Below are positions 33,015 to 59,640 of a stretch of DNA of 64,000 nt, in pieces; position 1 is the stretch's first letter; the number at the start of each line of letters is the position of its first letter. The position numbers and the translations under genes are program-made. The stretch is taken from assembly GCA_030697165.1 (NCBI GenBank), contig JAUYQQ010000009.1, positions 310,001 through 374,000 on the forward strand, written 5' to 3'. The stretch comes from Acidobacteriota bacterium. Lineage in GTDB: Bacteria; Acidobacteriota; Vicinamibacteria; Vicinamibacterales; UBA2999. The notes beneath the pieces are model-generated. The model worked only from the letters and a program-made list of their open reading frames with translations. It ran no database searches and was not told the DNA's origin.

Positions 33015-33884
33015 GTGCAGCCAGACCCGGACGCGGTACACGAGCAGCTCGATCGGATTCTCGCTAGCAAAGGCTTCGTCTCCGCCGGGCGGCTCAGTCG
33101 TTTGCTGCGCCACATCGTCGAGCGGACGCTCGCGGGCGAGACGGATCAGCTGAAGGAGTACTCGGTCGGCATGGAGGTGTTCGACCGCGACGACAAGTAC
33201 GACCCCCGCATTGATTCGATCGTTCGCGTTGAGGCCGGCCGGCTGCGCAGCCGTCTCGAGGAGTACTACGGCACCGACGGCGCGGCCGACGCGGTGCGCA
33301 TCTCGCTCCCCCGCGGCGCCTACGTGGCGCTGTTCGAGCCCCACCAGGCTGCGCCACCTGCCCCAGCGCAAGAGCCGGAAACGATCGAGTCGCCCAGGCG
33401 GGTGTGGGCGGCGTGGGCGCTCAGCACCGGCGTCGTCGCGCTCGTCGTCGCGGTCGTGACCTGGGTGGGCTGGTCCCGATCGGCCGAGGGGCCGCCATCA
33501 GTGGCCGTGCTTGCGTTCGAGCAGTATTCCGCCAGTGAAGAAGACGGCGCGACCGCGGCCCAGTTGACCGACCACGTGACGGCGGAACTGGCCCGCCTCG
33601 GCACCGTGAGCGTGGTGTCTCACACGAGCGCCATGCAGTTTGCCGGCGAGCGCAAGCCGCTGCGCGAGATCGCCCAGGCGTTGAACGCCGCGTTCGTGGT
33701 GGAAGCGTCGATCGAGAACGTCAGCGGCGGCATTCGCGTGATGGCCCGCGTCGTCAACGCCGCAACCGACCGCAAGATCTGGGTGGAAGACTACGGCGGC
33801 CGCCCCGGCGACTTAGCTGGGCTCAGCCGGCAGATCGCGGCCGGCGTCAGCGCCGCGGTCTTACGAGCACCCCGAGCACCTTAG
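33015..33884 (+). CDS. Membrane protein with TolB-like periplasmic domain
   Basis: 289 aa from GTG 33015. Residues 1-110 form a domain seen at the start of many acidobacterial signalling proteins (LLRHIVERTLAGETDQLKEYSVGMEVF, RLEEYYGTDG, ISLPRGAYVALF). One membrane segment lies at about 137-157. The outer part (160-285) is TolB/FlgO-like (VAVLAFEQYSASEEDGATAAQL, NAAFVVEASIENVSGGIRVMARVVNAATDRKIW). Longer relatives add TPR repeats; here the protein stops inside a tandem repeat. Function unknown. Confidence 0.7.
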   Translation: MQPDPDAVHEQLDRILASKGFVSAGRLSRLLRHIVERTLAGETDQLKEYSVGMEVFDRDDKYDPRIDSIVRVEAGRLRSRLEEYYGTDGAADAVRISLPRGAYVALFEPHQAAPPAPAQEPETIESPRRVWAAWALSTGVVALVVAVVTWVGWSRSAEGPPSVAVLAFEQYSASEEDGATAAQLTDHVTAELARLGTVSVVSHTSAMQFAGERKPLREIAQALNAAFVVEASIENVSGGIRVMARVVNAATDRKIWVEDYGGRPGDLAGLSRQIAAGVSAAVLRAPRAP

Positions 33885-33919
33885 GCACCCTAGGCACCTT
33901 AGGCACCTTAGGCACCCTA
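33866..33919. repeat. Tandem repeat of TTAGGCACC
   Basis: About five 10 bp units between two convergent genes. The stop codons of both genes are TAGs made by the repeat (33882-33884 and 33917-33919). The same unit occurs at 37405-37436 and 42533-42597. Confidence 0.85.
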
Positions 33920-36153: not shown

Positions 36154-37883
36154 CTACTCTAACCCAACGTCTCGGCGACGGGCGTATCTCTCCTGGGGCG
36201 AAATCTGCAGAACGCGGCCCTGGGGCGTCTCGAGCATCGGGATCACCTGCAGCCCGTCGAGTTCGATCGCTCGCGGCAGCCAGGGCGCCGAGTGGCCAAC
36301 CGGAAAGTCCTTGAAGACATCCACGATCAGCACGCGATCGGGCAAGGTGCCGTCGGCATTCGGCGTGAACAGGTCGCCGGGACGGAACACGGCCGGTGCA
36401 CCAGTGTAGACACCGGCTGACGTGCCATCCGGCCGCGTAACCAGGAAGCGATCGCGGACGAAGTCGTCGAGCGCGAGCCACCGGTCAATTCGGCCGACCA
36501 GCATGAGACACGCCAGTTCGTCGGTGCAGGCGACGCGATCCGCCGGCAGCAGGCCGGCGCGCACTTCGTCCATGCCGGGAATGTCGATGGTGGGTCGCGC
36601 GGCTTCGAGGCGATCGTCAATGGAACCCGAGCCACGCCATTGATCCAGCCCCAGGGCCAACGCGACGAGGGCGACCACGGCGAAGGCGACACGGCGTGGG
36701 AGCAAGCGCCCGACGATGGCATCAACGTCGATGGCAATAGCTGCCAGCATCAGCACGACCGGCAGCAGCAGGTAATTGGTGGTGATGCCGGAATCGATCA
36801 CCCCAAACCAGAGGACCCAGAACAGCCACAACAGGTGCGCGCCGCGCTCGTGCAGCCGCCACTCGCCACCGGCGCCCAGGAGGCGCGCGCCGAGCGACGC
36901 CAGCGCCAGCATCGTCAGCACCGGGTGCGCTGCGGCGAGGTGACGGAACATGTCCAGCGGGTACACGGCGCCGTCGGAGGCCACTCGCGCCACCGTGGCC
37001 ACGTCCAGGGGACCCAGATTCGACGCGCGCGCGATCGAGAACGAGAGCACCATGGCCGCGAAAGATAATCCGGCGACGGTGGCAAGTCCGGCGCGGGCGG
37101 GCACCAGCAGCCACGCCACCACCATCGCGGCCAGCGTGTGGCCGTACTGGCCGCTGGGCGGCACCTCGAACAGGTTCAACACCTGCCACAGGAAGAATCG
37201 CCTCACCATGGTCTCGCCGCTGGACGGTTCGAGCGCATGCAGCAAGAACAGGAGCCCCTGAGCCGCCACGAGACCGGTGACGATGGCGGCGGCGGCGGCC
37301 AGCCACGCCCGTCGCTTGGCGCGCACACCCAGTAGCGCGCACACGAGGGGGATGGCCGGCAGCGTGAATGCGAGTTCGTGGGTTAAACGCGAAACGAACG
37401 CGATGGTGCCTAGGGTGCCTAGAGTGCCTAAGGTGCGCTGGCCTCGGGTGCTCAGCAGCCACAACACCGCCAGATACGAGGCGAGGAACGGCGCGTAGAA
37501 GCGGCCGGTGGTGGCGGTGGCCCAGAAGGGCAGCGACATCGATACCAACGTCGCGGCGAGCACCGCGGCGCGATCGGTTGCGTGCCGGCCGACGATGGCG
37601 AAGACCAGGAGCACCGACACCAGCGCGCTCAGCAGGCTCAGTGCACGATAGGCTGGAAGTTGCGAACCGGTGAGCCAGCCGGCCATCCAACTGGCGTAGG
37701 AGTAGGCGAGGCCGCGGTCGTAGAGAAGCGCTGACGGCAGGTGCGGCAGGCCGCCGAGCTCGATGCCGCGGACGGCGAAGAGGGTGAACTCCTCGTCAAC
37801 GGAGTAGCCGGCGCGCGTCAGTTGCGACGCGCCGGCCAATAGGACTATTGCAGCAAGGACCGCGACCCAGGTCGAGGGCCGCG

Positions 37884-37887: not shown

Positions 37888-38933
<1,046 letters not shown>

Positions 38934-38979
38934 GCCGAATTACTTTATCACCGGCAACACAGATGACGCAGATCCCGCG

Positions 38980-39031
38980 GTCCGGCTAAAGCCGGACGCT
39001 ACATCGATGTGGCGTCCGCCTTCAGGCGGAC
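38980..39031. repeat. REP-like pair of palindromes
   Basis: GTCCGGCTAAAGCCGGAC (38980-38997) and GTCCGCCTTCAGGCGGAC (39014-39031) flank GCTACATCGATGTGGC. The stop codon and last ten residues of ThiI (VRLKADATSM) are encoded by this element. Related single palindromes occur at 44032, 51038, 51074 and 58594. Confidence 0.9.
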
Positions 39032-40204
39032 CATTGCCGGCCGCGGGTGCACCAGGTCTTCCACCACGGCCTGGGCGGCCGCGGCCTTGACCATCTCGGC
39101 AATGGGCAGCCCGGCCTCGACCTCGTCAATCTGGTGCCGGCGGGCATGGGTCTCTGGATGGCGAGGCGTAAACAGGGTGCAGGTGTCCTGGTCGGGCTCG
39201 ATCGAGATTTCGAAGGTGCCCAGCCGCTGCGCCTGGCTCATGATCTCCTCCTTGTCCATGCCGACCAGCGGCCGCAGGATCGGCAACCGGGTCGCGCTGT
39301 CGGCGGCGGCGAGGTTGTCGAGGGTCTGCGACGCGACCTGGCCAATCACGTCACCCGTCACCAGCGCCTTCGCCCTGGCGTCGCGGGCGATGCGCTCGGC
39401 GATGCGCAGCATGAAGCGCCGGTAGATGATCACCCGCAGGGCGCCGGGCACGCCGAGCGTCACCTCACGCTGCAGCTCGCCAAACGGCACCAGGAACAGC
39501 CGCGACCGCAACTGGTAGCGCGTCAGGACCTCGGCCAGCCGGCGGGCCTTTCCCTGCGAAATGTTCGACAGGAACGGCGCGCTATGAAAATGCACCAGCG
39601 TCACGTGGCAACCGCGCTTCATCATGCGCCACGCCGCCACGGGCGAATCGATGCCGCCCGACAGCAGCGCCGTCACGCGGCCGGCCGTACCGGTCGGCAA
39701 TCCGCCGGGCCCCGCCTCCTTCTGCATGTAGAGGTACGCCTGCCCCGGCACGATCTCGACGCTGATCACCAGGTCGGCATGATCCAGGTCCACCTTCCAG
39801 CCGCGCGCGCGCCAGACCTTCGAGCCCAGGTCGCGTGCCAGGTCGGGCGAGGGCGTCGCGAACTGCTGATCGGCGCGGCGCACGTACACCCGAAAACTCG
39901 ACGCACTTTCGCGCGGCGGCAGCCGCGAGACAATCGCCTCGGCCATGCCGTCGAAGTCGAGCGGCACGCGGGTCGCCACCGAGTAGTTGGCAATGCCGAA
40001 CACGCGCGACATGCGATCGCGAATCTCGCCGGCCGTCGCCTCGCGGCCGAGCACGATCTCGATCCGGCCCATCGGCGTCCGGATCTCCTTCACGCTCAAT
40101 CCGGCCAGCGCCATGTGCAGATGGCGCACCAGCCGGCCAATGAACCACGGGCGGTTCTTGCCCTTGAGCGCGACCTCCGAATAGTGGGCAAGTATTGATG
40201 TCAT
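38999..40204 (-). CDS. thiI: tRNA 4-thiouridine synthase ThiI
   Basis: 401 aa from ATG 40204. The start MTSILAHYSEVALKGKNRPWF is the standard one. It has the N-terminal ferredoxin-like and THUMP domains and the PP-loop SGGIDSPVAAW. No rhodanese domain follows, as in many bacteria. The C-terminal ten residues come from the REP element at 38980. It inserts sulphur at U8 of tRNA and may feed thiamine synthesis. Confidence 0.92.
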   Translation of the reverse strand: MTSILAHYSEVALKGKNRPWFIGRLVRHLHMALAGLSVKEIRTPMGRIEIVLGREATAGEIRDRMSRVFGIANYSVATRVPLDFDGMAEAIVSRLPPRESASSFRVYVRRADQQFATPSPDLARDLGSKVWRARGWKVDLDHADLVISVEIVPGQAYLYMQKEAGPGGLPTGTAGRVTALLSGGIDSPVAAWRMMKRGCHVTLVHFHSAPFLSNISQGKARRLAEVLTRYQLRSRLFLVPFGELQREVTLGVPGALRVIIYRRFMLRIAERIARDARAKALVTGDVIGQVASQTLDNLAAADSATRLPILRPLVGMDKEEIMSQAQRLGTFEISIEPDQDTCTLFTPRHPETHARRHQIDEVEAGLPIAEMVKAAAAQAVVEDLVHPRPAMVRLKADATSM

Positions 40205-40215
40205 TTCCAAAAGGC

Positions 40216-40340
40216 AACCACGAGGGACACGGAGATCCACACGAAGGACACGAAGAATCTAATTTTAATAGTGGTTGGCGTGCTTCGTGGCTTCGGTCTT
40301 CGCGTGCTTCGTGGTTTCTGTCTTCGTGTGCTTCGTGGTT
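40216..40340. repeat. CACGAAG-type degenerate repeat
   Basis: Several imperfect copies of CACGAAG/CTTCGTG in both orientations between thiI and hpnE. Bases 40271-40340 are translated as the HpnE tail TTKHTKTETTKH and onward. A relative lies at 14340-14402. Confidence 0.8.
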
Positions 40341-41692
40341 GAGACAAGGGCTGCCGCGCGGTGGCCCGACACCGCCGCCGATTCAATCGTCGCCGGGAGG
40401 CCGGTATCGATCCAGTCGCCCGCCAGCAGGAACCCGGCAATGGCAGTCTCGGTCTGCGGCCGGGGCGGCGCGTCCGGCGCCAGCGAAAAGGTCGACCGCT
40501 TCTCGCGCACGGCCAGGCCCTTGCGCAGCACCGCGCTGCGAGCTGCCGGCAGCGCCGCTCGCACGTCGGCCAGCGCCAGCGCGATCAGTTCGTCGTTGCC
40601 CATCGCGACGATCGTCTCGGCGCCGCTCGAGATCATCGACAGGTGGGAACTGGCGCCGCCGACAATGGCGCGGCGATCGAACACCCACTGAAACGCGCGC
40701 CCGGGCAATCCGATCAGCGCTTCATGCATCACCGGACGATCGAACCACAGGTTCACCGTCACGATCGGCAGGCTGCCCAGTGCCGACGCATTGGCGATGG
40801 TGCCGGCCAACGCAGCGGGGGGCTCCTCGAACACGGCGCCGAGCGCATGCCACGGCACGGTGGAGATCACGACCGGCGCTGAAATGTGCTCGCCGCGCAC
40901 GCGCACGCCGGTCACGCGATCGCCCTCGACCACCACCCTGGCCGGCGCGTTGACCCGCACCTCGTGGCCGCGCGCCTCGAGCCACGCCCGCGCCGGTTCG
41001 GCATACAGTTCGTCGAGCGGCACCACTGGCATTACCAACGCGGCCGACGAAGGATCGGGGCCGAACATCCGCTCGAGAATGCCGACAAAGTACGACGCCG
41101 CCGCCTGGTCGATCGACTGGTTGAGCGCGGCCAGCGCCAGGGGTTCCCAGAACAGCTCGCAGAGGCGCGGCGCCTGGCCGAGTCGGGTGAGCCATTCGCG
41201 GACGGTTTCGCGGGACGGTTCGGTGGGGATGTAGCGTCCGCCTTCTTGACCGCCGTAGCCTTGGCGAAGGTGGTTAGGCGGACCAAGGGCTGCGCCCACG
41301 CGAAGAATCGATAGGCGCTCGGCCCAGCTGAGCGCGTCCCACGCGAGCACACCGCCGAGCAGGTGCAGCGGCGACGGCAGGGGCGGCAACTTCAGCACCG
41401 ACTCGCGGCCCTGCTGGTCGACCATGGTCAGCGCAAGACCCGCCTGCCACCGCACGCGGTCGAGCGCGTTGATGCGCGCCAGCAGCGCCAACGTGTCAAC
41501 GTAACAGCCCATCAGGATGTGCTGGCCGTTGTCGACGCGTTCGCCGGTTTCCGGATCGGTAAAGGCCGTGGCGCGGCCGCCCAGCCCTGGACGGGCTTCG
41601 AGCAGCAACACCCGCGCGCCGGCTTCTGCCAGCGCGGTGGCGGCACTGAAGCCGGCCACGCCGCCGCCAATGACTACGGCGTCGGCGGTCAC
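40265..41692 (-). CDS. hpnE: Hydroxysqualene dehydroxylase / squalene-associated FAD desaturase
   Basis: 475 aa from GTG 41692 (GTGA overlap with hpnD). FAD motif AVVIGGGVAGFSAA, then EARPGLGGRATAF and the C-terminal LAGDWIDTGLPATIESA. It removes the hydroxyl group from hydroxysqualene in the three-step bacterial squalene route. Two repeats have altered it: an 18-residue in-frame insert (LRQGYGGQEGGRYI region, 41231-41284) and a Lys/Thr/His-rich tail from the repeat at 40271. Confidence 0.9.
   Translation of the reverse strand: MTADAVVIGGGVAGFSAATALAEAGARVLLLEARPGLGGRATAFTDPETGERVDNGQHILMGCYVDTLALLARINALDRVRWQAGLALTMVDQQGRESVLKLPPLPSPLHLLGGVLAWDALSWAERLSILRVGAALGPPNHLRQGYGGQEGGRYIPTEPSRETVREWLTRLGQAPRLCELFWEPLALAALNQSIDQAAASYFVGILERMFGPDPSSAALVMPVVPLDELYAEPARAWLEARGHEVRVNAPARVVVEGDRVTGVRVRGEHISAPVVISTVPWHALGAVFEEPPAALAGTIANASALGSLPIVTVNLWFDRPVMHEALIGLPGRAFQWVFDRRAIVGGASSHLSMISSGAETIVAMGNDELIALALADVRAALPAARSAVLRKGLAVREKRSTFSLAPDAPPRPQTETAIAGFLLAGDWIDTGLPATIESAAVSGHRAAALVSTTKHTKTETTKHAKTEATKHANHY
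41231..41284. repeat. REP-like element inserted in frame in hpnE
   Basis: 54 bp with inverted ends GTCCGCC and GGCGGAC. The inner part TAGCCTTGGCGAAGGTGG is also found, with small changes, at 47171-47199. On the minus strand it reads PPNHLRQGYGGQEGGRYI, a peptide I associate with repeat-derived inserts in acidobacterial proteins. Confidence 0.85.
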
Positions 41693-42531
41693 GCGCGTGA
41701 AAACAGGCGATAGCCGAGCGCCGACAGCTGCCCACGCGCCCAGATCGCGAGCGCAATTCGCGCCCGCACGGCCTTGGGTACGCGAATCAACTCGGCGAAC
41801 ACGTCGTAGTGGCGGCGCTCGATGCGCTGGAGGATCTCGAAGTAGATGCCGCCCATGATCTCGGCCGCAACCAGCTTGTGCGCATCGGCGTGGGGCATGG
41901 CCTGCGCGGCGGCGGTGTAGAACTGGCGCGCGCGCTGGCACTGGTGCGCCAGCAGGTTGCGCATGGCCGGGGTGACGACACCGGCGCGCAAGTCGGCTTC
42001 GCATACGCCGAAGCGCGCGAGGTCTTCTTGCGGCAGGTAGACGCGGCCATTCTTGAGGTCAACGGCCACGTCGCGAATGATGTTGGTGAGCTGCAGGGCC
42101 AGGCCCAGGTTGAAGGCGTAGTCGCGCGAGCGCGAGTCGCGCGCGCCGAAGATTTCGATGCACATCAGGCCGACCGCCGAGGCGACGCGGCGGCAATAGC
42201 CGGACAGCTCGTCGAAGGTCTGGTACGTCTTGTGACGAAGGTCCATCTCGACGCCGTCGACCAGGTCGTCAAACGGCTGCCGCGACAACGAAAAGGCCGC
42301 CACTACCGGTGCCAGGTTCTGCCCCTGCGGCGTGAGCGGGGCTTCGCCGCCGAACAGTCGGCCCACCTCTTCGCGCCACCGGCCAATCTCGCGTGCCGCG
42401 GTCACCTCATCCGGCGCCTCATCCACCGCATCGTCCACGGCGCGGCAGAAGTCCCAGACCAGGCCAATAGCCTGACGCTGCTCGTCTGGCAGGACTAGGA
42501 ACGAGTACGAGAATGATGTGTCTCTTGCCAC
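41689..42531 (-). CDS. hpnD: Presqualene diphosphate synthase
   Basis: 280 aa. The first Asp motif is DDAVDE and the second is DVAVDLKNGRVYLP; both bind Mg-diphosphate. It condenses two farnesyl diphosphates. Its start lies directly beside the tandem repeat that separates it from hpnC. Its stop overlaps hpnE. Confidence 0.92.
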   Translation of the reverse strand: MARDTSFSYSFLVLPDEQRQAIGLVWDFCRAVDDAVDEAPDEVTAAREIGRWREEVGRLFGGEAPLTPQGQNLAPVVAAFSLSRQPFDDLVDGVEMDLRHKTYQTFDELSGYCRRVASAVGLMCIEIFGARDSRSRDYAFNLGLALQLTNIIRDVAVDLKNGRVYLPQEDLARFGVCEADLRAGVVTPAMRNLLAHQCQRARQFYTAAAQAMPHADAHKLVAAEIMGGIYFEILQRIERRHYDVFAELIRVPKAVRARIALAIWARGQLSALGYRLFSRA

Positions 42532-42532
42532 G

Positions 42533-42597
42533 GGTGCCTAAGGTGCCTAGCGTGCCTAATGGTGCCTAAGGGGTTGGTGCCACGGTGCCAGCGTGCC
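42533..42597. repeat. GGTGCCTAA tandem repeat at the hpnC-hpnD junction
   Basis: Six or more imperfect units. It encodes the last residues and the stop codon of hpnC (TAG at 42566-42568) and forms the whole hpnC-hpnD spacer. Confidence 0.88.
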
Positions 42598-43468
42598 GGC
42601 GCCAAAGGGCTGTGCCAAACGCTATCACTAATGCATCGCTGGTGCCGAGCGCCGGACGCGACGTGAAGACGTCGTAGTGGCCGGCTTCGAGGCGATCGAG
42701 AATGCGGGAACCGCCGAGCCAGGTGGCGCGCAGCTCGTAGCGAAGGCGGCCGCCGACCCCGTCGCAGACCGGGCGGCCGGCGGCGAACAGTTGCCGCGTG
42801 CGTGCGCCGCAGGCGCGCATGGCCGCCGCCCACTCCGGCGTCAGGCGGCCGCGATCGAGGGCTGTCGGGTCGGCGCCGGCGGCCCGCCAGGTTTCTTCGG
42901 GCACGTAGAGCCGGCCGCGCGGCCAGTCGATGGCCAGGTCCTGCCAGAAATTGGTGAGCTGCAATGCCGTGCATACGGCATCGCTGGCGCGGTCGAGCGC
43001 CCCATCGCGATAGCCACTCAGCCGCAGGACCAGGCGGCCCACCGGGTTTGCAGATCGCCGGCAGTAGTCCAGGACGTCGTTCCACGACGCATACCGAGTC
43101 GTTACGACATCCTGCTTGAATGCACTCAACAGGTCGTGGAACAACTCCGCCGGGAGGTCGAAGCGTTCGCGCGTGTTCGCCAGCGCGCTGAAGATCATGT
43201 CGGGAGGGCACTGCTGGTCGGGAGGGCGCTTTGCGTCGGGAAAGTGCTCGCCATCAAGCCGCCTCCCCCACTCATCCAGTAGTCGCAAACGCTCGTCCGG
43301 CTCGCGGCCGGGCTCATCCGCGAAATCGTCGGCGGTGCGGGCAAAGGCATAGATGGCGGCGACGTGTGGACGCAGCCGCGCGGGCATCAGGCGCGAGGCG
43401 ACCGGAAAGTTCTCGTAGTGGGATTCAGCCAGCCGCTGACAAGCCGCGTAGGCTTGCTCGAGGTTCAC
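42566..43468 (-). CDS. hpnC: Hydroxysqualene synthase-like protein
   Basis: 300 aa from GTG 43468, GTGA overlap with pduO. Motifs are HYENFPVASRLMP, DDFADEPG (first Asp motif) and QDLAIDWPRGRLYVP (second). HpnC turns presqualene diphosphate into hydroxysqualene. Residues HFPDAKRPPDQQCPPDM come from a GTCGGGAGGGC repeat (43199-43241), and the C-terminus ends in the GGTGCC repeat, so both a loop and the tail are repeat-derived. Confidence 0.9.
   Translation of the reverse strand: MNLEQAYAACQRLAESHYENFPVASRLMPARLRPHVAAIYAFARTADDFADEPGREPDERLRLLDEWGRRLDGEHFPDAKRPPDQQCPPDMIFSALANTRERFDLPAELFHDLLSAFKQDVVTTRYASWNDVLDYCRRSANPVGRLVLRLSGYRDGALDRASDAVCTALQLTNFWQDLAIDWPRGRLYVPEETWRAAGADPTALDRGRLTPEWAAAMRACGARTRQLFAAGRPVCDGVGGRLRYELRATWLGGSRILDRLEAGHYDVFTSRPALGTSDALVIAFGTALWRRHAGTVAPTP
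43199..43241. repeat. GTCGGGAGGGC repeat inside hpnC
   Basis: Three imperfect units in frame within hpnC. The same unit GTCGGGAGGGCACT occurs at 32187-32213 after a hairpin in a non-coding gap. Confidence 0.8.
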
Positions 43469-44004
43469 CACTGAGTTTCTTGGACACCGGCTCGATGGTT
43501 TGCCGCCCTGGCGATCGTGAACAGCAAATCCGACAGCCGGTTCAGGTAGACGATCACCACCGGTTCGACGGCGTCGGCGCCGAGCAGCAGCACCGACCGC
43601 TCCGCGCGGCGGCACACGGTGCGCGCGTAGTGGAGCGCCGCGCCGGCCGGGCAACCGTCAGACAGGATGAAGTGGCGCAGTGGCGCGATTTGCTCATCCA
43701 GTTTGTCGATCCAACCTTCGAGGCGACTGATGCTCTCGTCGTTGATCACGATCTTCTCGACCCGCCTCGCGATCTTGTGCGACGGGTCGGCGAGCCGCGC
43801 GCCCAGCGCGAACAGGTCGCGCTGGAGAGACACGCACATCTCATCCAGGTCCGGTGGCAGGCCGGCGGCGCGCACCATGCCGAGGCACGCCTGCACCTCG
43901 TCCACGTCGCCGTACGCGATCACCCGCGGGTGGGTCTTCGAGACCCGGGTGCCGTCGAACAAGCTGGTATCGCCGGTGTCGCCGGTTTTTGTGTAGATGG
44001 ACAC
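43465..44004 (-). CDS. pduO: Cob(I)alamin adenosyltransferase, PduO type
   Basis: 179 aa: MSIYTKTGDTGDTSLFDGTRVSK (ATP site), YGDVDEVQACLG, and the C-terminal CRRAERSVLLL with YLNRLSDLLF. It makes adenosylcobalamin. It leads the hpn genes with a 4 nt overlap; the link to squalene synthesis is not obvious. Confidence 0.92.
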   Translation of the reverse strand: MSIYTKTGDTGDTSLFDGTRVSKTHPRVIAYGDVDEVQACLGMVRAAGLPPDLDEMCVSLQRDLFALGARLADPSHKIARRVEKIVINDESISRLEGWIDKLDEQIAPLRHFILSDGCPAGAALHYARTVCRRAERSVLLLGADAVEPVVIVYLNRLSDLLFTIARAANHRAGVQETQW

Positions 44005-44031
44005 TGGTAGGATTATAGGGCGTCGCAGCCG

Positions 44032-44049
44032 CTCCGGCTAAAGCCGGAG
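44032..44049. repeat. REP-like palindrome
   Basis: CTCCGGCTAAAGCCGGAG followed by GCTACAT, between the divergent pduO and mutY-like genes. Confidence 0.8.
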
Positions 44050-44078
44050 GCTACATTGCGGCTTACTGATCACCACAC

Positions 44079-44786
44079 TTGCCGCCTAAACCACGCACCC
44101 CACCCCTGCCGGCGCCGGCCTTGCGGCAGCGCTTTCGCCGAAACCTGCTGGCCTGGTACCGCAAGAACGGCCGCGATCTGCCGTGGCGCAACACCAGCGA
44201 CCCGTACCACATCCTCGTGTCGGAGATCATGCTGCAGCAGACGCAGGTCGATCGCGTGCTGCCGAAGTACCTTGAGTGGCTCGGTAAGTACCCGAGCTTC
44301 GCCGTGCTCGCCGAGGCGCCACCGGCCGAGGTCACCAAGACGTGGTATCCGCTGGGCTACAACATCCGCCCGAGGCGGCTGCAGTCGATCGCCCAGCAGG
44401 CGGTCGAAAAGTACGACGGCCAGCTGCCGTCGGACCGCGAGACGCTGCTGTCGTTCAAGGGCATTGGCGAGTACACCGCCGGCGCGGTCCGCAGCTTTGC
44501 CTTTCGTGAGCGCGCCGCTATTCTCGACACCAACGTGGCGCGGGTGCTGTTTCGCATCTTCATCGGCAAGGGCGATCCGAAGAGCCACGCCATGAAGAAA
44601 CGTCTGTGGGCGCACAGCGAAGCCGTGCTGCCGCACAAGCACGTGTTCGACTTCAACCAGGCGTTGATGGATTTTGGCGCCACGCACTGCAGCGCCCGCA
44701 AGCCGAAGTGCTCGTCCTGCCCCATGATCCGCCTCTGCCGGTCCCGCACGGGGCTAGCAGCCGTCATGAACCGAGCGCGGTCTTGA
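44079..44786 (+). CDS. A/G-specific adenine glycosylase-like (MutY catalytic domain only)
   Basis: 235 aa from a TTG. HhH-GPD fold with the catalytic Glu in SEIMLQQTQV, helix-hairpin-helix GIGEYTAGAV and Asp in LDTNV. The iron-sulphur Cys pattern is C-x6-C-x2-C-x5-C at the end. The C-terminal Nudix-like domain of full MutY is missing, so recognition of 8-oxoG may differ. Such short MutY proteins occur in several phyla. Confidence 0.87.
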   Translation: MPPKPRTPPLPAPALRQRFRRNLLAWYRKNGRDLPWRNTSDPYHILVSEIMLQQTQVDRVLPKYLEWLGKYPSFAVLAEAPPAEVTKTWYPLGYNIRPRRLQSIAQQAVEKYDGQLPSDRETLLSFKGIGEYTAGAVRSFAFRERAAILDTNVARVLFRIFIGKGDPKSHAMKKRLWAHSEAVLPHKHVFDFNQALMDFGATHCSARKPKCSSCPMIRLCRSRTGLAAVMNRARS

Positions 44787-45018
44787 GCCGCTCGGCAATC
44801 TCGGCAGGCACCGGTTCAGGTTCGCGGAGCCGCGCCCGCACGGCGTCGACCATGCCGCCAAAGGCCTGGCCGAATGCGGCGCAGGCCTGACACTCGGAAA
44901 CATGTGCCTCGATATTGCCGCGCCGGTCAGGCGCCAGCTCACCATCCAGGTACGGCGACAGGTCCGCCAGGACTTCAGAGCAAGTCAGCCCGGCCACTGT
45001 GCGCTCACTTGGTCGCAT
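44764..45018 (-). CDS. Zinc-finger anti-sigma factor
   Basis: 84 aa with a short ZAS motif (CSEVLADLSPYLDGEL, HVSECQAC). No membrane segment, so it is a cytoplasmic anti-sigma. The start overlaps the sigma gene by 14 nt. It overlaps the convergent mutY-like gene end by 23 nt. Confidence 0.87.
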   Translation of the reverse strand: MRPSERTVAGLTCSEVLADLSPYLDGELAPDRRGNIEAHVSECQACAAFGQAFGGMVDAVRARLREPEPVPAEIAERLKTALGS

Positions 45019-45589
45019 GCATCGTCCCTCCCCTCACGGCCTCGGCCAGGCGTAAGCGCGCCCGGTGCAGCCGGCTCTTCATGGCCGCCGTAGTCAGGCC
45101 CAGCATGGCGGCCACGTCCTCGCCGCTCAGTCCCTCGAGGTCGCGCAGCGTGAGGACTTCCCGTTCGTCCGGGGCAAGGCCAGCGAGCGCGGCAACCAAG
45201 CGACCGTGCTGTTCCGCCGCCACCGCCAGTTGTTCAGGATTCGGCCCACCCCAGCCGGCGCGGATGCCGAGGTCGTCGAGCGGCGTCGCGTCAATCGGTT
45301 CGCGCGCCGCGCGGACGCGGCGGGTCACCGCCGCGTTGCGGGCAATGGTCAGCAACCAGGTCCGCACGCTCGATTCCCCGCGGAACCGAGACACGCCCTG
45401 CCAGGCCGACAGGAATGTCTGCTGCAGCACGTCTTCGGCTTCGTCACGCGTCCCGGCCACGTGCCGCGCCAGCCGGTAGACGCTCGCCTGGTGCCGCGTG
45501 ACCAGCGCGGAAAACGCCTCGCGGTCGCCGCCGCCAGCTCGGCGCGCCAACTCGAGATCGATCAGGCCTTCGTCTTGGGCATCGGACAC
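45005..45589 (-). CDS. ECF RNA polymerase sigma factor
   Basis: 194 aa. Region 2 (YRLARHVAGTRDEAEDVLQQTFLSAW) and region 4 (LAPDEREVLTLRDLEGLSGEDVAAMLGLTTAAMKSRLHRAR) are complete. It is paired with the downstream zinc-finger anti-sigma. The target genes are unknown. Confidence 0.92.
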   Translation of the reverse strand: MSDAQDEGLIDLELARRAGGGDREAFSALVTRHQASVYRLARHVAGTRDEAEDVLQQTFLSAWQGVSRFRGESSVRTWLLTIARNAAVTRRVRAAREPIDATPLDDLGIRAGWGGPNPEQLAVAAEQHGRLVAALAGLAPDEREVLTLRDLEGLSGEDVAAMLGLTTAAMKSRLHRARLRLAEAVRGGTMHATK

Positions 45590-45774
45590 GTGGAAATACC
45601 AAAGACACTATAAAGGGGGCAGGTGCCGGCGAGGCCGGTGACGATCGGCACCAGGCCGATGTAACCCCACACCCCGATCGTGCCCATGGCCGCCATGGCC
45701 ACCAGCGTCACGCCCAGTGCGACCCGAATCACGCGCTCCGCCGGATGTTCGTTGGTTTTCAGGAATCCAGTCAT
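45562..45774 (-). CDS. DUF2892 (YgaP-like) membrane protein
   Basis: 70 aa from ATG 45774, preferred over the GTG at 45777 because GAGGAGG is well spaced. Pattern NEHPAERVIRVALGV, two membrane segments, GLAGTCPLYSVFGIST with the conserved Cys. It overlaps the sigma gene by 28 nt. Confidence 0.85.
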   Translation of the reverse strand: MTGFLKTNEHPAERVIRVALGVTLVAMAAMGTIGVWGYIGLVPIVTGLAGTCPLYSVFGISTCPMPKTKA

Positions 45775-45784
45775 CACGTCCTCC

Positions 45785-46186
45785 TCAATTGCGGTCTGAG
45801 GATATAGAGTTGGGCGCTTCAGAAAGGATTCTAATGAGGTCCCGATCGGCGTCGGGAAACGGCAGGCCGGCCAGCTCGCCGCGCGGCACCCACCGCATCC
45901 CCTGTCCCATCATCGGCTTCGGCTCGCCCTCGAACCCGCAGCGATAGAAGTGCAGCTCGACGGTCTTCTCCGGGTACGCATGGGTGACGGTATGAACGGC
46001 CTCACCCACGGTGGCGACGATGTCGAGTTCTTCGAACAGCTCGCGACGAAGGGCCTCGACGTGAGTCTCGCTGACGTGGACCTTCCCGCCAGGGAACTCC
46101 CAATGATCCGCCAGGTGCGTACCCGCCTGCCGCAGCGTCAGCAGAAACGCATCGTCACGTTCGATGACGGCAGCCACGACCACCAC
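45785..46186 (-). CDS. MutT-like Nudix hydrolase
   Basis: 133 aa from GTG 46186. Nudix box: GGKVHVSETHVEALRREL then FEELDI. WEFPGGK is typical of MutT-type enzymes that clear oxidised nucleotides. The longer frame to 46261 begins with MDSTGAGRCRW and includes the REP hairpin; the GTG right after the hairpin gives a normal MutT start. Confidence 0.87.
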   Translation of the reverse strand: MVVVAAVIERDDAFLLTLRQAGTHLADHWEFPGGKVHVSETHVEALRRELFEELDIVATVGEAVHTVTHAYPEKTVELHFYRCGFEGEPKPMMGQGMRWVPRGELAGLPFPDADRDLIRILSEAPNSISSDRN

Positions 46187-46206
46187 GGGCGGGCATAAGC
46201 CCGCCC
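46187..46206. repeat. REP-like hairpin GGGCGGGC/GCCCGCCC
   Basis: A perfect 8 bp stem with an ATAA loop, followed by CTAC. It separates the PHP gene end and the MutT-like start. On the minus strand GTAG then GGGC matches the GTAG-plus-palindrome form of the other REPs. Confidence 0.8.
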
Positions 46207-46218
46207 CTACGGGGTCAC

Positions 46219-47274
46219 TCACCTGGGGCCAGCGGCACCGACCGGCACCGGTTGAATCCACGCGGCCTTGCCATTGGATTCCATGACCTTCGCGCGCACG
46301 TAGCCCTCGTCGCCCTTGAAGGTGTAGGTCGCCGTGGGCGTGGTCACTTCGCTCAGCACGCGGCCCTGCCGGCCGATGAACTGGATGCGGTACTTGCTCG
46401 CCGGCTCAGTCCTCACCGACAGCGACAGAGAGGATGCGCTGGCATCCACAGCCTGCATCTGGACGCCGGTGGACGAGTAGAAGTCGCCGCGCTCGAGCGC
46501 CTCGACCAGCGCGCGCGGCTCCAGCCGCGCCGCGCGCACATGGACCCAGCCCTTGCCCGGCCGCGGCGCCGCCGGATCCTCAGGCCGCTTGAAGTAATGC
46601 GCATCGTCCACGGCAATGCCGTACAGCAGCTTGCCGCTCGACAGGATGCGATCCCACGTTTCCTCGAGACTTGGCACGCCACCACCACCGAGGTTGTTCA
46701 CCGTGGGATGGCCGTTGAACACCTCGAACAGCTTCGTGCGCTGCACCTGTCCCAGTTCGTCGGGCGAGATCGCCCATCCGAAATTCGGGTGGTTGATGCT
46801 CGGCACGCCGCGGGCCGCGCGGATGCCGTCGACCATCTGCTGCAGGACATCCAATACCGAACTGCCACCCTCGGGCGGCGGCACGAAGCGCTCGATCTCG
46901 AGCCCGTTGACGTGCAGCGGCTTGTCACCGAACCGGCTGGTGACCTCTTCACCCTTGACGACCAGGAACTTGTCGTCGGCGCCATGGAGGGCGTTCAAGC
47001 CCTCGACGCTGGTCAGGTAGTTGTGATCGGTCAGCACCAGGAACTGGTAATTCCGCTCCCGATACCACGTCACGACATCGTCCGGCGTCGAGTCGCCGTC
47101 GCTGTTCACGGTGTGGGTGTGCAGGTTGCCTTTGAACCACAGGGCTTGGGGCTTGGTGGTCGGGGCTTGCTTGCCAGCCGGAGCCTTGGCGAAGGTTGGA
47201 GCAAGAGGCACAGCAACTACTGCCGCTGCCAAGAACGCCGAACCCAGCAGGACGAGCCGTTGCCTCGAAATCAT
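46219..47274 (-). CDS. Secreted PHP-domain metallohydrolase
   Basis: 351 aa with a signal peptide. PHP motifs are GNLHTHTVNSDGDS, LTDHNYL, INHPNFGWAIS and IAVDDAHYF. Residues 27-34 (FAKAPAGK) come from a repeat related to 41231-41284. It probably cleaves phosphoesters or related bonds. The ATG overlaps the ygfZ stop by 4 nt. Confidence 0.83.
   Translation of the reverse strand: MISRQRLVLLGSAFLAAAVVAVPLAPTFAKAPAGKQAPTTKPQALWFKGNLHTHTVNSDGDSTPDDVVTWYRERNYQFLVLTDHNYLTSVEGLNALHGADDKFLVVKGEEVTSRFGDKPLHVNGLEIERFVPPPEGGSSVLDVLQQMVDGIRAARGVPSINHPNFGWAISPDELGQVQRTKLFEVFNGHPTVNNLGGGGVPSLEETWDRILSSGKLLYGIAVDDAHYFKRPEDPAAPRPGKGWVHVRAARLEPRALVEALERGDFYSSTGVQMQAVDASASSLSLSVRTEPASKYRIQFIGRQGRVLSEVTTPTATYTFKGDEGYVRAKVMESNGKAAWIQPVPVGAAGPR
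47171..47199. repeat. Repeat fragment within the PHP gene signal region
   Basis: TTGCCAGCCGGAGCCTTGGC then GAAGGTTGG resembles the core of the element at 41231-41284. It is translated as TFAKAPAGK just after the signal peptide. Confidence 0.6.
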
Positions 47275-48119
47275 TCGATGGTCACCTTCGACCGGGAATC
47301 ATTCCATACGACTGTGACTTCCGTACCCGCGGCGACGAAATCCCGATGCACATAGCCCAGCCCGACCACGGCCTCGCGCGCCGGCGAGAATGCGGCGCTC
47401 GTGACGCGACCGATGTCCTTCTCTCCCTCTCCGGCAAAGATGCGGGAGCCGGGAAGCGGCACGACGGCGGCTGACGGATCCGCCTTCCAGCGCACCAGTT
47501 TCTTCGCCACGCGCCCGCCGCCGCGGTGCGTGACCCGGACGATCACCTCCTGGCCGACGTAGCACCCCTTAGTGAACGAGATGGCGCGGTCTTCGATGCC
47601 GGCCTCGAGGGGGATGGTTTCGTTGTCCATGTCGACCAGGAACCGCGGGATGCCGCGCTCAATACGCACCACCTCGAAGGTGTCGAGGCTGATCTCCGGA
47701 TACGGCAAACCGTGTGGCTGGCCAGCATCCACGATGGCATCGACCAACGCGCCGCGTTCGCCGGGGAGGATCGCCGTCCACAGCTCGAGGGCGTCGCCCT
47801 GCTCGCTCACCTGGGCGTCTTCGGCGAAGATCAAGCCGTCGAGCCGCTCGCAGAGCGCCGCGGCGAGCGGCGCCGGAACGTCCAGCAGCAGCCGGTCGGG
47901 CCGGGCCGTCACCGTCAGGTCGGTGATCATCCGGCCCTGGGGCGTCAGATACGTCGCATACCGGCTGTCGCCGGGCGCAAGCGAAGCCACGTCGTTGGTC
48001 ACCAGACCCTGCAGCCAGGCCGCCCGATCGGAGCCGGTAATCGCCAAAACGGCACGGTCAGTTCGCCTGGCCACGCCGCCGTCCGTCCGGAGGGCCCGGT
48101 AGCCGTCGAGGGAAAACAT
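47271..48119 (-). CDS. ygfZ: Folate-binding protein YgfZ (iron-sulphur cluster assembly)
   Basis: 282 aa of the GcvT-like fold. The signature KGCYVGQEV carries the conserved Cys, followed by RVTHRGG. WLQGLVTNDV and GRMITDLTV fit the N-terminal part. It helps maintain some iron-sulphur enzymes. Confidence 0.92.
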   Translation of the reverse strand: MFSLDGYRALRTDGGVARRTDRAVLAITGSDRAAWLQGLVTNDVASLAPGDSRYATYLTPQGRMITDLTVTARPDRLLLDVPAPLAAALCERLDGLIFAEDAQVSEQGDALELWTAILPGERGALVDAIVDAGQPHGLPYPEISLDTFEVVRIERGIPRFLVDMDNETIPLEAGIEDRAISFTKGCYVGQEVIVRVTHRGGGRVAKKLVRWKADPSAAVVPLPGSRIFAGEGEKDIGRVTSAAFSPAREAVVGLGYVHRDFVAAGTEVTVVWNDSRSKVTIE

Positions 48120-51034: not shown

Positions 51035-51037
51035 ATG

Positions 51038-51091
51038 GTCCGGCTAAAGCCGGACGCTACATCCTAATGTGGTGTCCGGCTTTAGCCGGAC
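51038..51091. repeat. Inverted pair of REP palindromes
   Basis: GTCCGGCTAAAGCCGGAC (51038-51055) and GTCCGGCTTTAGCCGGAC (51074-51091) face each other across GCTACATCCTAATGTGGT. They lie between the convergent serB and AMP-ligase genes. The second supplies the TAA stop of the ligase. It is a likely two-way terminator. Confidence 0.9.
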
Positions 51092-58260: not shown

Positions 58261-59640
58261 TCAGTCCCTTTCGATCAGTTCCAGATCGCCGCCGACTTCG
58301 AGCGCGAAGCGGCCGCGGCCCCTCGGTACCAGGCGAATGTCGCCCGCCTTCTCATCAAGCCGCCGGCGCAACAGCAGCAGTCGCGTCTCGAGGTTGTCCT
58401 TGAAGGCCGGCAGGCCCAGCGACTTGTCGAGGCGCAGTTCGCGGTTGGTGAACTCGGCCCGGCCTTCCTGCCGGTGCGCCTGCAACAGCTTCCAGAGAAT
58501 GCGCGCCGGCAGGCTGCGGATCAGGTACTCGCCGTCGAGCATCACGACTTCCTCGCCGCGATAGTAGGTGAGCTCGCGCCGGGACGCACTAGCGGGCCGG
58601 CTAAAGCCGGCCCCTGCTCTGCCGACGTCGTCCCGATCATCGTCTTCGTCCTGTTGCAGCTGCATGTTCTGGATCGCCACCGCCAGGTAGGAACCGAGCA
58701 GCTCGATCGCGGTCTTGTCTTCCTCGTGAAAGCGATACGGCGTCTCGCTCTCGATGCACAGCACGCCGACCAGCTCGCCGCGCACCATCAGCGGCACGCC
58801 CAGCTGGCTCGACGGGTTCTCGAGTCCCGGCAGCGGCACACGACGGTCGTCGGAACACCAGCCCTTCTCCTCGGCGCGCCGCTTGGCCGCGTAGGCGTGC
58901 AGCATGCCGCGCAGCAGGCCCGAGATGCGGATCGGCTTCTTGGCTTCAGCGACGAGGCCCATGATGCCCTCGCCGAACTGAATCTCGGCGCCGGCGCCGC
59001 TCTGCTCGTAGCCGCGGCTGGCGATCATCACGAGCGTGTCGGGCTTCTCGGTCGCCAGCGCGATCATCGAATGGCTGAAGTTGAAGTGACGCTTCAGCCC
59101 GACCACGATCGAGTCCAGCAGGTGCTCCAGGCTGTCGGCGGTGTTGATCTGCATCGACAGGTCCTGCAGCGCCTTCATGGTGAAGACCGGATCGGGCGGC
59201 TTGGCGCGCAGCGGCGGCGCCGAGCGATCGACCTGACCCTCCTCTTCGGGGACCTTCTCGACCGACTCCACCGTGTAGATGTCGGCGGCGAGCAGCTTGA
59301 AAATGCCCTTCATGCCGGTGTACGAGGCAATCGCCTCGATGCGCCAGAACATGCGCTCGAAGATCGGGCCGGAGGTCTCCGACCGCTCGAACCGCAGCCG
59401 CAGCGCCCACCCCTGCGCGGTGTCGGGATCGGTGACGTGCACCACCGCCTGCGGGTTCTCGGCAATGTTGCGGCGGCTCTTGTTGAAGAACTGGAACGAC
59501 AGCGCGACGTGCGTCGGATCCACGTACTCCACCTGGCTCAGGTACGCGGCGTTGGGCGTGCCGTCCTTCGCGCACGTGTAGAGCAGCGCCGGGACAATCC
59601 CCTGGAAGCATGACGCGAGCTTCTCCAGTCCCAGGCTCAT
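58261..59640 (-). CDS. Three-domain protein: PPOX-like, GAF and C-terminal winged-helix-like
   Basis: 459 aa from ATG 59640 (ATGA overlap with the upstream gene). Residues 1-140 resemble a pyridoxamine-oxidase-like flavin domain (CFQGIVPALLYTCAKDGTPNAA, QFFNKSRRNIAENPQAVVHVTD). Residues about 165-340 form a GAF domain (LEHLLDSIVVGLKRHFNFSHSMIALAT, GVPLMVRGELVGVLCIES). The C-terminal 100 residues look like a DNA-binding fold (GEYLIRSLPARILWKLL). An in-frame REP (58594-58613) encodes AGAGFSRPAS in the linker. It is probably a redox or ligand sensor. Confidence 0.75.
   Translation of the reverse strand: MSLGLEKLASCFQGIVPALLYTCAKDGTPNAAYLSQVEYVDPTHVALSFQFFNKSRRNIAENPQAVVHVTDPDTAQGWALRLRFERSETSGPIFERMFWRIEAIASYTGMKGIFKLLAADIYTVESVEKVPEEEGQVDRSAPPLRAKPPDPVFTMKALQDLSMQINTADSLEHLLDSIVVGLKRHFNFSHSMIALATEKPDTLVMIASRGYEQSGAGAEIQFGEGIMGLVAEAKKPIRISGLLRGMLHAYAAKRRAEEKGWCSDDRRVPLPGLENPSSQLGVPLMVRGELVGVLCIESETPYRFHEEDKTAIELLGSYLAVAIQNMQLQQDEDDDRDDVGRAGAGFSRPASASRRELTYYRGEEVVMLDGEYLIRSLPARILWKLLQAHRQEGRAEFTNRELRLDKSLGLPAFKDNLETRLLLLRRRLDEKAGDIRLVPRGRGRFALEVGGDLELIERD
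58594..58613. repeat. REP-like palindrome inside coding sequence
   Basis: GGGCCGGCTAAAGCCGGCCC, a perfect 20 bp stem-loop, translated in frame in the GAF protein linker. Confidence 0.88.

Follow-up and report, generated by a model that had tools for sequence, protein, structure and literature searches.

A 30-nt hairpin unit nested in a GTAG-tagged REP inside hpnE of an Acidobacteriota bacterium recurs in about ten phylum-level groups

The gene hpnE, encoding hydroxysqualene dehydroxylase, occupies 40265..41692 on the minus strand of the window, the whole 64,000-nt stretch of an Acidobacteriota genome that was analyzed. Its product matched NCBIfam TIGR03467 with 371.8 bits (cut-off of 283.05). 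The likely start (GTG at 41692) was inferred from homologs, and a longer open reading frame (ORF) reaches 42004. As the original prediction stated, 54 bp with inverted ends (GTCCGCC/GGCGGAC) lie in the frame of this gene at 41231..41284, and the coding (minus) strand across them translates as GPPNHLRQGYGGQEGGRYI. The single element that was expected proved to be two nested repeats, namely a 24-nt GTAG-tagged REP (41231-41244 and 41275-41284) and a 30-nt unit in its loop. The plus strand reads GTAG-CGTCCGCCTT / CTTGACCGCCGTAGCCTTGGCGAAGGTGGT / TAGGCGGACC; its outer segments pair into a GTAG-tagged hairpin, and a second hairpin is made by the 30 nt between them. From the sequence, the left part of the host REP (41231..41244, plus strand) comprises the GTAG tag (41231-41234) and the arm GTCCGCC, and the right part (41275..41284, plus strand) contains the arm GGCGGAC. 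The unit (41245..41274, minus strand; coding strand ACCACCTTCGCCAAGGCTACGGCGGTCAAG) and the composite were delimited from the sequence and a congener alignment. The expected gain of about 18 residues agrees with the 18 codons of the composite; relative to a congener in which the bare REP is already present, the gain in HpnE is 10 residues. A search of Rfam with the window stretch 38900-47400 (E up to 1) returned no relevant match, and three weak matches elsewhere were far under the gathering scores. The HpnE reading frame closes with a repeat-derived tail, TKHTKTETTKHAKTEATKHANHY (40265-40345), and runs of 9-mers resembling GGCACCTTA were seen in both orientations near gene ends at 33867-33919, 37405-37441, and 42499-42559.

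The insert in HpnE is probably in a loop, as had been suggested. In the predicted structure (mean pLDDT of 81.1), residues 139-158 had a pLDDT below 50 and were placed between helices 123-135 and 164-170. In the congener alignment, L098 and L105 have a bare REP in frame at the same place, translated as GPAKAGHYI or GPAKAGRYI, and downstream of it both carry additional REPs in inverted orientation (MWRPALAGP). Another congener (L102) carried a degenerate REP plus the unit (DHLRQGDGDQEAGR), and L101 and L104 carried different hairpins having a TAAA loop in common. As bare REPs, a REP plus unit, and other TAAA-loop hairpins all occur there, this loop is a repeated landing place. Among 30 HpnE loci of the same family, LRQG-type residues were present only in the own copy and in a degenerate copy of genome G004. 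In an HpnE tree built with the loop left out, the own copy grouped with those of G002, G003, G006, and G008 in an order that was not settled; the tree thus leaves undecided whether a REP came first and the unit followed, or the unit was lost or replaced.

The outer element is a dispersed, high-copy REP. GTAG at 41231-41234 is followed by GTCCGCC/GGCGGAC, the consensus in congeners is GTAGCGTCCGGCTTTAGCCGGAC, and 234 sites were counted in the genome at up to one mismatch (each palindromic site being counted on both strands), with none for the control. Bare copies of the host REP (repeat family D4, plus strand) were located in the window at 38979..39005, at 44031..44057 with a variant stem end, and at 51037..51063 with an inverted partner at 51067-51091 (repeat families D4 and I20). 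A weaker REP-like relative of family D4 (74%) lies at 58594..58620 on the plus strand. Two of the six Y1 genes of the genome (L094 and L095) were flanked by TAAA-loop hairpins with other stems. In L094, a minus-strand ORF starting from about 1913, beside the Y1 gene, opens with tandem ETPATAEAIAL-type peptides.

The inner unit has the 30-nt form N-CCNCC-TTCGCYAARGCTWC-GGN'GG-N'-CARG. It consists of a hairpin with a 6-bp stem, two pairs of which covary, and a conserved 14-nt top pairing as GCY/RGC; DNA folding yielded a 6-bp stem with an internal loop. The unit does not carry GTAG. Its 4-nt tag is CARG, which on the other strand reads CYTG directly 5' of the hairpin. CARG followed units with pair 6 formed in 49 of 62 copies from the own genome, 53 of 102 from other genomes, and 33 of 56 from IMG/VR.

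Covariation was evaluated in three sets (61 own, 86 non-acidobacterial, and 50 IMG/VR copies), collected in fetched loci by the 14-nt top alone and compared with 2000 shuffles. Pair 3 was formed in 34/61 own copies (shuffle mean of 24.3), 70/86 non-acidobacterial copies (56.2), and 44/50 IMG/VR copies (33.0). The corresponding counts were 34/61 (15.3), 75/86 (37.7), and 43/50 (20.3) for pair 6, and 60/61 (52.6), 77/86 (45.3), and 50/50 (27.7) for the inner Y-R pair. None of the 2000 shuffles reached the observed count for any of these pairs in any set, and pairing ended beyond pair 6. Pairs 1, 2, 4, and 5 are uninformative in the non-acidobacterial and IMG/VR sets because they were fixed in the pattern by which those loci were retrieved. 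Most of the slid control pairs were flat; pair -6/20 exceeded its shuffles in the own and cross-phylum sets, which we ascribe to a 31-nt form of the unit.

With up to three mismatches, the 20-nt core of the unit was found at 110 places in the 5.39-Mb genome, 55 on each strand, and the reversed pattern at one. About 30 of 100 own copies were 31 nt long. Among 56 stem-verified own copies, 25 were REP composites and 31 lacked REP arms. The unit was also nested in copies of itself (L163, L052, and L190). No clear target motif was detected; there was a weak CT preference, with CT before many copies having N0=T. Targeting of flanking hairpins was considered as a general rule and rejected outside the REP composites, as flanking stems of at least 6 bp were present at none of the 31 own copies without REP arms and most non-acidobacterial copies lacked a flanking stem.

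Other genes of the genome and its congeners record clean gains. A PHP-type metallohydrolase is encoded at 46222..47274 on the minus strand (NCBIfam CehA/McbA family, 101.9 bits, cut-off of 80; Pfam PHP below its cut-off). What had been taken for a related fragment in this gene (47171-47199) is a whole second 30-nt unit (47170..47199, minus strand; coding strand CCAACCTTCGCCAAGGCTCCGGCTGGCAAG), which lies around FAKAPAGK just past a signal-peptide-like start. The gene differs from that of congener L366 by exactly the 30-nt unit, and L361-L365 also lack it. The own copy of a MazG-family protein has 10 additional residues opposite an exact 10-residue gap in six of seven congeners; the seventh (L307) has seven unrelated residues at that place. 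No target-site duplication was seen at the MazG insertion. In a xanthine-dehydrogenase-like FAD subunit, the 54-nt composite (18 residues) was present in two of eight genomes and wholly missing from the other six. An agmatine-deiminase-like protein (AguA) carried the unit in the own genome, G002, and G003; the unit was absent from four others, G006 showed a drifted-looking stretch at its place, and the gap was 9 residues, not 10. The latter two names denote family resemblance, as both proteins scored under the NCBIfam cut-offs. The gains in MazG, PHP, and the FAD subunit bear out the expectation that this repeat family can insert into genes and add a peptide without disturbing the frame. In a membrane-protein ORF of L008 (902-2221), two in-frame units are separated by 63 bp (VASGFLVRRSLGEGGSR twice).

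With its 30 nt the unit adds ten codons, and five of the six frames are free of stops in its commonest variant (inner C-G, W=A), so that insertions into genes leave the frame intact; in the T-A variant, two frames are closed. The placement of 100 own copies relative to putative genes was scored by a codon-usage measure trained on the window. Twenty-six copies fell within ORFs, 16 and 17 were close to N- and C-termini, respectively, and 41 were intergenic or unclear. ORFs enclosed 26 of 67 copies when the unit was 30 nt long and none of 30 when it was 31 nt long, a comparison that is partly circular because a 31-nt insert breaks the ORF. The test was therefore repeated without asking for phase. 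When coding signal was required on both sides and on one strand (threshold of 15), 27 of 67 copies of the 30-nt form vs 2 of 30 of the 31-nt form qualified (Fisher p of 0.0006), and 22 of these 27 were in phase.

Of 396 Acidobacteriota genomes, 26 contained a degenerate 24-mer of the unit core, and 23 of these belong to the own order of the window; the control gave no match. The unit is not special to Vicinamibacteria, as had been presumed; by record title, the 24-nt core occurs in about ten phylum-level groups among the matches listed. The genome scan identified at least 117 stretches, and the core was usually multicopy. The 80 stretches listed bore titles of Alphaproteobacteria, Acidobacteria, many kinds of Patescibacteria, Omnitrophota, Elusimicrobia, Bacteroidota, Verrucomicrobia and Kiritimatiellae, Planctomycetota, Marinimicrobia, Geobacter/Geomonas, and Deltaproteobacteria. 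Phylum assignment follows these titles; a bin may be titled wrongly, as happened in one case here. The record titled Cyanobacteria bacterium (L188, genome G465) was rejected as a cyanobacterial carrier, as its elements occupy the same places as in the acidobacterial genome G005 and the bin is mislabeled. Isolate records carried the unit in three phyla (Bradyrhizobium, Niastella soli, and Geomonas). In 50 genomes picked for having a match, 1 to 105 copies each were counted at one mismatch, and the control gave none in all 50. The scan of viral contigs retrieved 42 stretches with the unit, which may therefore also travel on phage or provirus DNA.

In loci with a GC content of 0.55 or less, 10 of 30 copies were inside ORFs. 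In-ORF copies in genes confirmed by Pfam or NCBIfam affected tRNA-guanine transglycosylase (TGT, twice), thymidylate synthase, LeuRS, PheT, a glycosyltransferase, a ThuA/GSDH protein, and a DUF2298 protein. The inserts of Patescibacteria in TGT and thymidylate synthase fill gaps of 10 and 9 residues, respectively, in solved relatives. LeuRS was dropped as a clean example, since its solved relative shows no net gap. A Patescibacteria PheT frame (L210, 233-2584) had NlpC/P60 domain matches mid-way (residues 343-412). The unit was also found in the RNase P RNA of L147 and L208. In L147 (Geobacter MAG, 2586-2977), it caps an early helix, and a second helix is tipped by a reversed-sense relative; we take these helices to be P3 and P12.

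The unit is therefore a dispersed, high-copy sequence that was gained cleanly as 30 nt in single lineages. Its sites include REP loops, genes, copies of itself, and RNase P RNA, and about ten phylum-level groups contain it. The insert in HpnE is very probably explained as a nested pair of small palindromic repeats, a GTAG-tagged REP outside and an independent 30-nt hairpin unit inside; the description of the unit, taken apart from the step that mobilizes it, we hold with somewhat greater confidence.

The unit would spread as a non-autonomous, single-stranded, tagged hairpin. The most likely agents would be HUH Y1 transposases of the RAYT/TnpAREP type, which may mobilize it in trans as they do REPs; we propose this step tentatively. 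The unit may in part be a passenger of REPs, and insertions in tolerant loops would survive and drift. In Acidobacteriota, a Y1_Tnp match was obtained in 24 of 26 carriers vs 234 of 370 non-carriers (p of 0.002, kinship being ignored), and within the own order in 21 of 23 carriers vs 9 of 19 non-carriers, for which the p value likewise ignores kinship. No Y1_Tnp match was found in 2 of the 26 acidobacterial carriers or in 8 of 49 carrier genomes elsewhere, which include one isolate record (Geomonas) and some genomes with many copies (21, 19, 12, and 10). In the own genome, none of the six Y1 genes had the unit beside it. The unit adjoined 3 of 40 Y1 loci from 16 genomes. In L339 and L350 (Planctomycetota by title; about 1322-1975), the Y1 genes lie between inverted unit copies inside larger palindromes, and in L338, the unit is on one side only.

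Spread of the unit through an RNA intermediate and reverse transcription, a route reportedly suggested for small dispersed repeats of cyanobacteria, is unlikely but the best placed of the alternatives. It would suit the copies in transcribed places (including RNase P RNA), the eight carrier genomes without a Y1_Tnp match, and the lack of a target-site duplication in MazG. The GAA/GWA internal loop and the tag, however, suit single-stranded DNA equally well, and Y1 genes are enriched in carriers.

We consider it rather improbable that selection, and not selfish spread, has maintained and multiplied the unit as a functional site for a DNA- or RNA-binding protein. The near constancy of the 14-nt top across phyla, the covariation of the hairpin, and the frequent position close to a gene end (33 of 100 copies, N- or C-terminal) are what such a site might display. 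Against this, presence varies between congeners at each of the five genes compared, in-gene copies look drifted (HpnE of G004 and AguA of G006), and the two orientations are used equally (55 and 55).

It is still less probable that the unit is a long-loop variant of the GTAG REP, moving solely as a part of the REP. Large-loop REPs have been reported in Bradyrhizobium (PMC3733652), nearly half of the stem-verified own copies (25/56) are composites, and the composite entered the xanthine-dehydrogenase-like gene as one 54-nt piece. The other 31 copies, however, have no REP arms, MazG and PHP gained the unit without a REP, most non-acidobacterial copies are free of a flanking stem, and the unit has its own tag and a covarying pair 6. 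An assembly or contamination artefact of metagenome bins, which the many MAGs among the carriers and the mislabeled record sharing places with G005 might bring to mind, has next to nothing in its favor given the isolate records in three phyla and copies that are diverged, nested, and set in local genes with local codon usage.

An independent unit that may spread as a tagged hairpin has several known counterparts. The small dispersed repeats of Nostoc punctiforme that Elhai described in 2008 are reportedly 21-27 nt long, with compensatory changes in a hairpin and nested insertions, and are said to be confined to a group of cyanobacteria. They resemble the unit in size, compensated hairpin, and nesting; by this description, the unit is set apart by its spread. 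GTAG- and CGTC-tagged REPs with their RAYT/TnpAREP transposases are likewise short tagged hairpins at high copy in several phyla (PMC3733652, PMC8266576). The outer element shares their GTAG tag. The unit differs from GTAG REPs in lacking this tag, in its conserved 14-nt top, in being nested in REPs, and in having a Y1 partner that is only a candidate; its in-gene form is, moreover, always a multiple of three. IS200/IS605-type HUH elements have a tetranucleotide 5' of a hairpin and are read as single-stranded DNA, as one article describes (PMC8266576). CYTG plus the hairpin of the unit resembles this arrangement by analogy; in contrast, the unit has no enzyme, and no fixed target was found for it.

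In-frame palindromes as such are a known kind, since REPs in ORFs and Rickettsia elements in proteins and RNase P RNA have already been published. REPs inside ORFs, in eight phyla overall and with suggested positions in linkers or loops, were reported by Di Nocera in 2013 (PMC3733652). Palindromic elements of Rickettsia lie within numerous proteins without breaking the frame, and the genes of tmRNA and RNase P RNA contain them too (Delihas 2007, PMC2229807; a review of MITEs, PMC10969869). The unit, too, inserts in frame in protein genes and into structural RNA genes. The Rickettsia elements are described there as about 105-150 bp and Rickettsia-specific, whereas the unit has 30 nt and occurs in about ten phylum-level groups, and it is by this description that the two are set apart. 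In the running text of the papers covered, searches by string (LRQGYGGQ, five further peptides, and six DNA stretches from the unit) gave no match, and searches by topic did not find the unit. We thus take the unit, as characterized by its length and tag, its conserved top, and its nesting and spread, to be probably new.

On balance, we lean slightly towards a broader reading, in which the unit represents a hitherto undescribed, phylum-crossing class of frame-neutral hairpin elements. Such a class, defined by 30 nt, a conserved top, and a CYTG tag, would jump into REP loops, itself, structural RNAs, and protein genes, would seed ten-residue peptides in enzymes including thymidylate synthase and aminoacyl-tRNA synthetases, and would be among the smallest mobile DNA known, with a 31-nt sister nearly shut out of genes. 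If this is true, selection on frame could be gauged against the 31-nt form, which nature supplies as a control. In the annotation of unrelated bacterial proteins, HLRQGYGGQ, FAKATADK, RRSLGEGG, and similar peptides should be recorded as repeat-derived, not as domains. A single, defined DNA sequence could be tracked across many phyla as it inserts into protein genes, and the question of whether selfish palindromes supply raw protein sequence would become countable, with the same insert in many hosts, clean empty sites, and a frame-breaking 31-nt control.
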